From: Bulleidia extructa W1219
GTDB taxonomy: Bacteria; Bacillota_I; Bacilli_A; Erysipelotrichales; Erysipelotrichaceae
Assembly: GCF_000177375.1 (NCBI RefSeq)
Contig: NZ_ADFR01000002.1
Span: 62,001-126,000, forward strand
DNA length: 64,000 nucleotides
Direction of reading: 5' to 3'
Position numbers and translations under genes: made by a program. Below are positions 57,437 through 59,668 of the stretch, piece after piece (the stretch's first letter is position 1; each line of letters opens with the position of its first letter). Under the pieces are notes generated by a model that was given only the letters and a program-made list of their open reading frames with translations, was not told the DNA's origin and did no database searches.

Positions 57437-57934
57437 AGAAATAATAGTTAATTTTAAAAGCTATTTCCCTATTTAACCACTATGATATGTGTCATAAATC
57501 TATAATCACTTTATAAATTAGATTCTTTATCCACTTTATTTACTCTCATTCCAAATAACCCAGCACACGAAATAAAAATATTTACACCACAAGAAGTAAT
57601 TGAAAAGCCTATAACAATCATGGGCGAAGTTGTGGAAAGAAGATTCTTAAAAGTGGTGATAAGCTATGACCAATCATGCCAATATATCCAACTATATTCA
57701 TGAAGTTTTAAACTATTATATTTTGCTAACAACTATAGATTTTTCAACATATAATAGAATCATGGAAAAACTACCATCTTATATTACTGGAATTATCATT
57801 TGGTTATTTATTATCTATCTTACTTATAGACATTATGCTGTTCCAATACGTAAGTATAAAAAAGATACCAAAATCACATGTAAACGAGAAGAAAAACCAA
57901 AAAACTTGAAATAAGAAAAATCAAAGAACAAACA
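57437..57934. other. AT-rich accessory stretch with decayed reading frames
   Basis: No complete gene is convincing. A plus-strand frame through about 57545-57700 (IFTPQEVIEKPIT...) lacks a start and ends in TGA; a frame at 57762-57914 encodes a single membrane helix and a basic tail but has no ribosome binding site. They look like remains of accessory genes. Confidence 0.4.
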
Positions 57935-58086: not shown

Positions 58087-58115
58087 TTGACAAAAAAAAT
58101 CTAAATGTATAGAAT
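58087..58115 (+). promoter_or_regulatory. strong promoter for the Abi-linked small RNA
   Basis: TTGACA (58087-58092), 17-base spacer, TAGAAT (58110-58115): a near-consensus sigma-A promoter. Transcription should start around 58121, well before the terminator at 58161 and the Abi gene at 58219. Confidence 0.75.
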
Positions 58116-58120
58116 GAGCT

Positions 58121-58195
58121 TACTTAAAAGCTGTGGAAACTTGTGAAGCCCATTTGCGAGAAAAGGTCTACTCATTTGAGAAGACCTTTTTCTTT
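58121..58195 (+). ncRNA. putative small RNA upstream of the Abi_2 gene
   Basis: About 75 nt between a near-consensus promoter and a strong intrinsic terminator, with no ribosome site or sizeable frame. Fold by eye: CUUGUGAA (58140-58147) with UUUGCGAG (58153-58160), loop GCCCA; then the terminator hairpin. The order promoter, small RNA, terminator, toxin-like gene recalls type III toxin-antitoxin systems and ncRNAs reported beside AbiF-type genes. No tandem repeats typical of ToxI are seen. RNA function is inference. Confidence 0.55.
58161..58195 (+). terminator. terminator between the small RNA and the Abi gene
   Basis: AAAAGGTCT and AGACCTTTT pair, extended by CTCA/TGAG after an A-A mismatch, and TTCTTTT follows. 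Read-through would be needed to express the Abi gene from the same promoter. Confidence 0.85.
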
Positions 58196-58218
58196 TATAT
58201 CCACAAGAGGAGAATGAC

Positions 58219-59187
58219 ATGAAAAAATTCAATTCAGTTGATGAGCAAATCGAAAAACTAAAATCGAGAAATGTTAACATTTCAAATGAACAAATCGCAA
58301 GAAGATATTTAGAGCTCAACAACTACTATAATGTTATAAATTGTTGTGCACGTCCTTTTTTGCAAAATAAGGGAAATAGTGAAATGTATAAAGACGGTTC
58401 GAATTTTGATGAAATTATAGCTATCCATAAATTCGAAAATGCCATTAAACAAGATATACTAGAAAATTTACTATTAATTGAAAAACATTTGAAATCAACA
58501 ATTGCACATGTTTTTTCAAAATATCACCAAGAACCTTTTTCTTGTTTAGACAAAGATAGTTATAATTTCAACACCTGCACAATTTTAGACATTTCTACTC
58601 TAATTTCATTGATTTCTAAGAAAATCAATGAGCAAACAAAGCAGAAAGAGCCGAATTCTGTCAAGCACTATATTCGAGATCACAAAGATATCTCGATGTA
58701 TGTTTTAATTGATCATTTTACTTTTGGAAATATTGTATCAATGTTTAAAATTATGAAATTTAAAGAACGCGCAGAAATCATAGGTACATTTAACAAATTA
58801 TTATCTGAAAACATAGATGGCGTTGTTTTAAATATTTCTCCTCATAATTTTGATACAATGCTAGCCAACCTGTTATCTTTACGAAATACAACGGCACATA
58901 ATTCAAGTTTATTCTCATTTAGCACCAGAGCAAATATCTCATACATTCCAGCCCTTCATGATAAATATAGAATCAATGCAACCTCATCAAAGCAAAATCT
59001 ATATAGTAACCTTATCACTTTTGCATGTTTTCTACCAAGCAACGATTTCAAAAAATTTTATAATTCAATTTTGAAAAGAAGCAAAAAACTGAATAATAAA
59101 CTACATACAATTAGTGTTAATGAAATATACATGAAATTAGGTTTCCCTATTGGTTTTCACACATATCCAAATTTAATGCAAATATAA
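58219..59187 (+). CDS. Abi_2 family (AbiD/AbiF-type) abortive-infection protein
   Basis: A 322-residue soluble protein of the Abi_2 family, part of the HEPN ribonuclease superfamily. Conserved blocks: IARRYLELNNYYNVINCCARPF (24-47), FENAIKQDILENLLLIEKHLKSTIAH (72-97), DHKDISMYVLIDHFTFGNIVSMF (154-176) and the HEPN RX4H motif RNTTAH (222-227). These proteins stop phage propagation, probably by cutting RNA in infected cells. GAGGAG lies before the ATG. The small RNA directly upstream is the likely antitoxin or cofactor. The position beyond ssrA and AT-rich composition suggest horizontal acquisition. Confidence 0.85.
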   Translation: MKKFNSVDEQIEKLKSRNVNISNEQIARRYLELNNYYNVINCCARPFLQNKGNSEMYKDGSNFDEIIAIHKFENAIKQDILENLLLIEKHLKSTIAHVFSKYHQEPFSCLDKDSYNFNTCTILDISTLISLISKKINEQTKQKEPNSVKHYIRDHKDISMYVLIDHFTFGNIVSMFKIMKFKERAEIIGTFNKLLSENIDGVVLNISPHNFDTMLANLLSLRNTTAHNSSLFSFSTRANISYIPALHDKYRINATSSKQNLYSNLITFACFLPSNDFKKFYNSILKRSKKLNNKLHTISVNEIYMKLGFPIGFHTYPNLMQI

Positions 59188-59300: not shown

Positions 59301-59311
59301 ATGTTATATAG

Positions 59312-59668
59312 TGGAGCTGAGGGGAGTCGAACCCCTGTCCAAGAGAAGTCCCACATTCGAGCCTCTACAGTTTAGTTACTTTGTCATAAGACGAATACTT
59401 TTAAAGTCACCAAAATATATTCGAATTTACCTATTCATTGTCGAAGGAATAAGCTAGGTTATTATTCCTCGTATCCGTTTTTTTACACTATTGAAAGAAG
59501 ACGGCTACTCTTCCAATAGGGCGCTGCGAACGCCTCTAGCGTTAAATTAAGCAGCGAATGCGAAGCTTGCGCTTCTATTTGTATTTGCGTTTAATTTGTT
59601 TGATGATTAGGTCATCACTCCACTGCCACCCGAATCAAACATTAACCTGTCGAAACCTTGACAGCCCC
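59312..59668 (-). ncRNA. ssrA: tmRNA (ssrA)
   Basis: The minus strand begins GGGGCTGTCAAGGTTTCGACAGG and ends GGACAGGGGTTCGACTCCCC plus TCAGCTCCA; GGGGCTG pairs with CAGCTCC as the acceptor, and the T-arm is intact. CCA is not encoded. The tag frame at 59588-59547 reads (resume GCA) ANTNRSASFAFAA then TAA. tmRNA rescues stalled ribosomes by trans-translation; smpB lies just upstream. Confidence 0.95.

Follow-up and report, generated by a model that had tools for sequence, protein, structure and literature searches.

The window, the whole 64,000-nucleotide stretch analyzed here, carries a unit in the interval from a TetR gene to ssrA (tmRNA; 59309-59668, minus strand). Along the + strand, a promoter is followed by a non-coding transcript, a terminator, and an Abi_2/HEPN open reading frame, arranged as follows.

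58087-58115, + strand: sigma-A type promoter, TTGACA-17-TAGAAT (11/12 consensus bases, the best in the region; same placement in most Abi_2 loci)
58122-58198, + strand: predicted short non-coding transcript of ~75 nt, its ends inferred from the promoter and terminator (MFE -20.3 kcal/mol; conserved hairpin plus terminator)
58130-58158, + strand: conserved antitoxin-type RNA motif (best match of the R2 covariance model in 64 kb; covariation)
58161-58199, + strand: intrinsic terminator, stem 58161-58190 and U-rich tail to 58199 (14-nt arms 93% complementary; fold)
58205-58212, + strand: ribosome-binding site AAGAGGAG (from sequence; ATG 6 nt downstream)
58219-59187, + strand: Abi_2/AbiD-F HEPN protein of 322 aa, a predicted RNase toxin (Pfam, PADLOC, phmmer, structure model)

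The first-pass annotation had described a near-consensus promoter, a terminator between a short RNA and the Abi_2 gene, and a transcript free of open reading frames, and our analysis agrees on each, including the coordinates. In the terminator, two 14-nt arms (58161-58174 and 58177-58190) form an inverted repeat with a U-rich tail behind it, and about 20 nt separate the U tract from the ATG of the Abi_2 ORF. A consensus terminator scan overlooked this terminator, probably owing to an A/A mismatch between the arms. ATG ORFs are absent from the transcript, and a small encoded peptide was ruled out, since the only two frames start with GTG (24 and 29 codons) and both cross the terminator. An 82-aa ORF with no significant Pfam match (57666-57914) lies between the TetR gene and the RNA gene. 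The unit sits just past the 3′ end of ssrA, a placement that recurs at the locus of one relative (L003:812-1196). An Abi_2 gene beside ssrA was absent from all 11 other same-genus ssrA loci examined, and a search for an ssrA attachment-site repeat adjoining the module found none.

The 322-aa protein matches Pfam PF07751 (Abi_2) with an E-value of 1.1e-27 and 98 bits against a curated cut-off of 25.6, and PADLOC names it AbiD (E 1.1e-37). Its HEPN RX4H motif, which had been proposed as the active site, is RNTTAH at residues 222-227, and R222, N223, and H227 are invariant in an alignment of 24 sequences. Querying the genome contigs with the single protein found no relative; querying with an alignment did. 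Against solved structures, phmmer returned a sole sequence match, the PbAbiF dimer with its ncRNA (8vz6; E 2.2e-8), and an AlphaFold2 model of the protein (pLDDT 92.5) matched the same entry with a Foldseek E-value of 9.4e-11 and a Z-score of 21.9 over 282 residues. Judged by this model, the Abi_2 protein is related to PbAbiF in structure. Cas13d chains came next in the structure comparison at a Z-score of about 8, a weak value for a helical protein; the similarity is consistent with the published Cas13 link, and we claim no more from it.

The upstream RNA had been described as a region of about 75 nt that folds into two hairpins. The span 58116-58200 has a folding energy of -24.3 kcal/mol (z -3.4), matched by none of 200 shuffles, and the two-hairpin fold is real and conserved, although the hairpin favored by that span alone (58140-58160) is not the one supported by covariation (58130-58157). 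The covariation-supported fold, consisting of the latter hairpin and the terminator, is also the one of lowest energy for 58122-58198. Taken alone, the conserved hairpin is weakly stable (-2.8 kcal/mol), and the rival hairpin at 58140-58160 is close in energy. Across the family, the hairpin has a G-C/G-C clamp and an outer stem of 4-6 bp, whose 3′ side may carry a one-nucleotide bulge. An internal loop, asymmetric at about 3 nt versus 1, then leads to a 3-bp inner stem and an apex of 3-5 nt; the typical core is CUCUACGGRG. The window motif follows this plan with a GC clamp, a 4-bp stem bearing a 3′ U bulge, an internal loop of AAA/C, and an inner CUU-GUG-AAG hairpin.

Conservation of the hairpin was assessed with two covariance models, both built with the window left out. 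For the R1 model, from 7 sequences, 58130-58159 was the second-best site of the window (E 2.2). The R2 model, trained on 23 relatives, ranked 58130-58158 first in 64 kb at 18.0 bits (E 0.0014), with the runner-up at 11.7 bits, and in the whole 1.42-Mb, 16-contig genome this was the sole match at E<=1, so that no second copy of the motif was found in the window's own genome at that limit. The covariation score was 0.512 compared to 0.271 for shuffled alignments (reached in 0/500), structures slid along the alignment scored <=0.107, and 97.4% of cells were paired; RNAalifold derived the same hairpin structure unaided. Adding the window to 30 other distinct sequences gave 0.534 against 0.262, in an alignment fitted to the model and biased in its favor. 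When R2 was run on both strands of 90 Abi_2 loci (339 kb), all 36 matches lay directly upstream of Abi_2 and on the strand of the gene. The first-pass annotation would have been refuted by a fold not conserved upstream of other Abi_2 genes; the fold is instead conserved, covarying, and, in these loci, confined to that position. The window motif is a low-scoring member (18 bits versus 30-46 for most); it has a single U-U mismatch, and its apical loop is shorter. Its inner element is the same in L132, a locus from an uncultured Clostridia bacterium outside the R2 training set (AAACUUGCGAAGC vs AAACUUGUGAAGC), in which the outer arms are paired differently. A generic structural descriptor was rejected as a sole search for being too permissive, at 10.8 matches per kb.

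The short transcript matches no RNA family in Rfam, either at gathering thresholds or at E<=10. RF03085, the abiF RNA with a score threshold of 37 bits, has no match in the window up to E 10, and it likewise matched 0/20 Abi_2 loci at gathering and 0/9 loci up to E 10, strong R2 members included; the positive control, C. difficile phage phiC2, matched at 37.6 bits. The two RNAs also differ in the internal loop, which has 1 nt on the 5′ side and 6 nt on the 3′ side in RF03085 and about 3 and 1 in the family of the window. By these sequence-based searches, the window RNA belongs to a family that is separate from RF03085, uncatalogued, and found across Bacillota. Because RF03085 does not match it, its link to the experimentally tested antitoxins comes from its position and from the protein family, and not from the sequence of the RNA.

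The order of RNA gene, terminator, and toxin gene, which the first-pass annotation had likened to that of type III toxin-antitoxin loci, extends well beyond the window. In a simple consensus scan, used only to contrast Abi_2 genes with controls, a promoter followed by a terminator was found upstream of Abi_2 in 84 of 117 distinct regions and upstream of other ORFs at the same loci in 8 of 289. At several loci of relatives of the window protein (L003, L004, L040-L044, L053), a single toxin gene is preceded by two complete promoter-RNA-terminator cassettes in tandem, of which the distal one ends in a terminator of its own. We also observed at least two other sequence types of Abi_2-linked RNA, in some of which the motif and terminator appear to be merged (L015, L050, L120, L122-L125, L128-L131; also L014, L016, L033, L047). 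The window genome itself carries a second Abi_2 gene (L002; G000:C8:127525-128091) preceded by a different hairpin and terminator, an arrangement similar to that in a same-genus relative (L022).

The R2 motif also occurs apart from any toxin gene. Among 311 whole genomes of the order, R2 scored at least 28 bits in 12. An Abi_2 ORF came next in four of these, the contig stopped just past the RNA in two (L161, L166), and no Abi_2 ORF lay downstream in six (L156, L157, L165, L167, L159, L162). In L156, L165, and L167 the motif (1501-1529 when oriented) is beside a phage integrase gene of PHROG 1 or 23783. The L157 motif, at the same oriented coordinates, is integrase-adjacent by sequence resemblance to L156, and its contig stops after the motif; a similar sequence, L238 (motif 174-202), runs on without Abi_2. 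In L159 the motif has a phage transcription regulator on one side and an HNH endonuclease on the other, and in L162 it lies in an apparently ordinary chromosome. In both L165 and L167 a second hairpin of another Abi_2-RNA type directly follows the motif; upstream hairpins with the loop GUUGGYAGC were noted there as well.

Exact-pattern scans of IMG/VR recovered the motif on 59 contigs, with an Abi_2 ORF within 1.5 kb downstream on 1 of them; these contigs are not independent events, because about 40 of the 59 (within L200-L251) are near-identical streptococcal phages. In phages of S. agalactiae, the motif scores 34.0 bits and stands amid tRNA and tRNA-like sequences upstream of terminase genes, with a partly mispaired outer stem; these copies include L205:7784-7812 (- strand) and L253:4289-4317. 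A tRNA-like sequence precedes it in L194 (123-151), L207 (159-187), L213 (7776-7804), and L239 (2846-2874, - strand). Further toxin-free phage motifs were seen at L198:7569-7597 (- strand) and L195:11417-11445. Pattern matches in L209, L217, L226, and L244, where the phage DNA looks protein-coding, were treated as chance.

The window locus is very probably an AbiD/F type III-like toxin-antitoxin module of phage defense, in which the RNA would bind and restrain the HEPN toxin. The locus itself provides the parts in their order, an RNA fold that covaries and is tied to Abi_2, the protein fold, and an invariant catalytic motif; from its relatives we infer transcription, RNA-protein binding, toxicity, neutralization, and a phage trigger. 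The first-pass annotation had left the RNA as antitoxin, guide, or activator. The antitoxin role is the best supported, because the experimentally studied relatives work in this way (PMC12373285; 8vz6), and guide and activator roles are less so; since the mechanism is published for the same protein family, we interpret the locus as a module whose antitoxin is the RNA. In C. difficile, AbiF is toxic and arrests growth, R202 and H207 are needed for toxicity, and the RCd22 RNA neutralizes AbiF in trans by direct binding while also limiting transcription (PMC12373285). That locus has the order promoter, RNA, terminator, abiF, and its transcription mostly ends at the terminator (PMC12373285). PbAbiF, according to the structure entry and the accounts that mention it, is an RNase toxin whose dimer was solved bound to its ncRNA (8vz6; PMC12373285, PMC12737573). 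By analogy, the single promoter in the window would yield mostly a ~75-nt RNA that halts at the terminator, with rare read-through producing the Abi_2 mRNA. The protein, an HEPN RNase fold that presumably functions as a dimer and has R222/H227 as active-site residues, would be held inactive by free RNA bound to it by way of the conserved hairpin (58130-58157). During phage infection, loss of the short RNA or increased read-through or translation may then disturb this state and free the toxin to cut cellular RNA and stop growth.

The main rival of the antitoxin reading is that the RNA is a cis-acting leader only: as an attenuator or sensor, it would hold toxin levels low through its terminator, with no protein binding. 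A terminator does sit between promoter and gene both here and in most relatives; the short RNA of abiD1 stops at such a terminator, with control assigned to the 5′ region and to translation (PMC2661086), and deletion of RCd22 raised abiF mRNA 17-fold (PMC12373285). RCd22 nevertheless acts in trans (PMC12373285), and in the window family the conservation and covariation lie in a hairpin distinct from the terminator, whose internal loop and apex contain conserved unpaired bases, as a protein-binding RNA would be expected to have. A leader would need neither the two RNA cassettes often seen in relatives, the distal one separately terminated, nor motif copies without any Abi_2 gene, and these tandem cassettes and toxin-free copies argue against cis attenuation as the sole role. 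We consider that explanation improbable.

A Cas13-like function, with the RNA as a guide or activator leading the HEPN nuclease to a target RNA, draws on the Cas13d resemblance in the HEPN part of the fold and on the proposal that Cas13 descends from AbiD/F (PMC12165695). The resemblance is weak at its Z-score of about 8, however, the protein has one HEPN motif, and the transcript passes at once from the conserved hairpin to the terminator with no spacer-like segment; AbiF relatives are, moreover, reported as non-guided toxin-antitoxin systems (review PMC12737573). We consider a guide or activator role very improbable. That the pair is a decayed remnant, inserted near ssrA and no longer working, would fit the 11 ssrA loci lacking Abi_2 and the low motif score, and yet the 322-aa ORF is intact with an invariant active site, the promoter is near consensus, the terminator and ribosome-binding site are intact, and the RNA arms are still largely paired; we regard this as the least probable of the explanations, and a most unlikely one.

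With the RNA read as an antitoxin, the toxin-free phage copies suggest decoy antitoxins, by analogy with pseudo-ToxI (as outlined in PMC3475682) and with solitary-repeat RNA anti-CRISPRs (as outlined in PMC10651486); anti-addiction or regulatory roles are possible. An RF03085 match is carried by one cyanophage (PMC9964418). We tentatively put at somewhat under an even chance the combined proposal that the window RNA represents an uncatalogued family of AbiD/F antitoxins and that phages and prophages have captured its motif as solitary "anti-Abi" decoys. These copies are of greater interest than the window module itself and would make counter-defense against AbiD/F directly testable. AbiD/F proteins are widespread anti-phage toxins and proposed Cas13 ancestors, and their RNA partners have been represented by one small Rfam family only; the R2 covariance model widens the RNA side to many Bacillota genera and supplies a testable RNA element.

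Among known systems, CRISPR-Cas13 has two HEPN domains in one protein and a crRNA array, whereas the window protein has one conserved RX4H motif in 322 aa and no crRNA-type repeat array was found at the locus. The type III system ToxIN shares with the window an RNA gene, a terminator, and an RNase toxin in one transcription unit; it differs in having tandem short repeats and a ToxN-type toxin in place of an HEPN toxin. As had been noted before, the upstream region contains no tandem short RNA repeats of the ToxIN/CptIN/TenpIN kind, only a single motif. L. lactis AbiD1 (pIL105) confers phage resistance, and transcription from the abiD1 promoter yields a 50-nt RNA that stops at a terminator ahead of the gene (PMC2661086). 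The window protein is named AbiD by PADLOC, and a short terminated RNA lies upstream in both; the 50-nt RNA was ruled out as a member of the window's RNA family, as it has no R2 match. The PbAbiF-AbiFr pair (8vz6; Zilberzwige-Tal et al. 2025), as represented by that entry, shares the modeled fold over 282 residues (Z 21.9), the RX4H catalytic motif, and a small ncRNA partner, at 20% identity in a comparison of the proteins only. AbiF-Cd/RCd22 of C. difficile prophages (PMC12373285) has, like the window, a promoter, an RNA with a hairpin motif, a terminator, and an Abi_2 HEPN gene, the layout of an AbiF-ncRNA system with its structured ncRNA directly upstream of the toxin gene and conserved along with it. 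RCd22 is ~100 nt long with two abiF (RF03085) motifs, whereas the RNA of the window carries a single motif from a different sequence family. The window protein is 24% identical to phiC2 AbiF. Novelty is lower than the first-pass annotation had estimated because the AbiF-ncRNA system is already published: the kind of module is known from AbiD1, AbiF-RCd22, and PbAbiF, and the RNA family is what differs.
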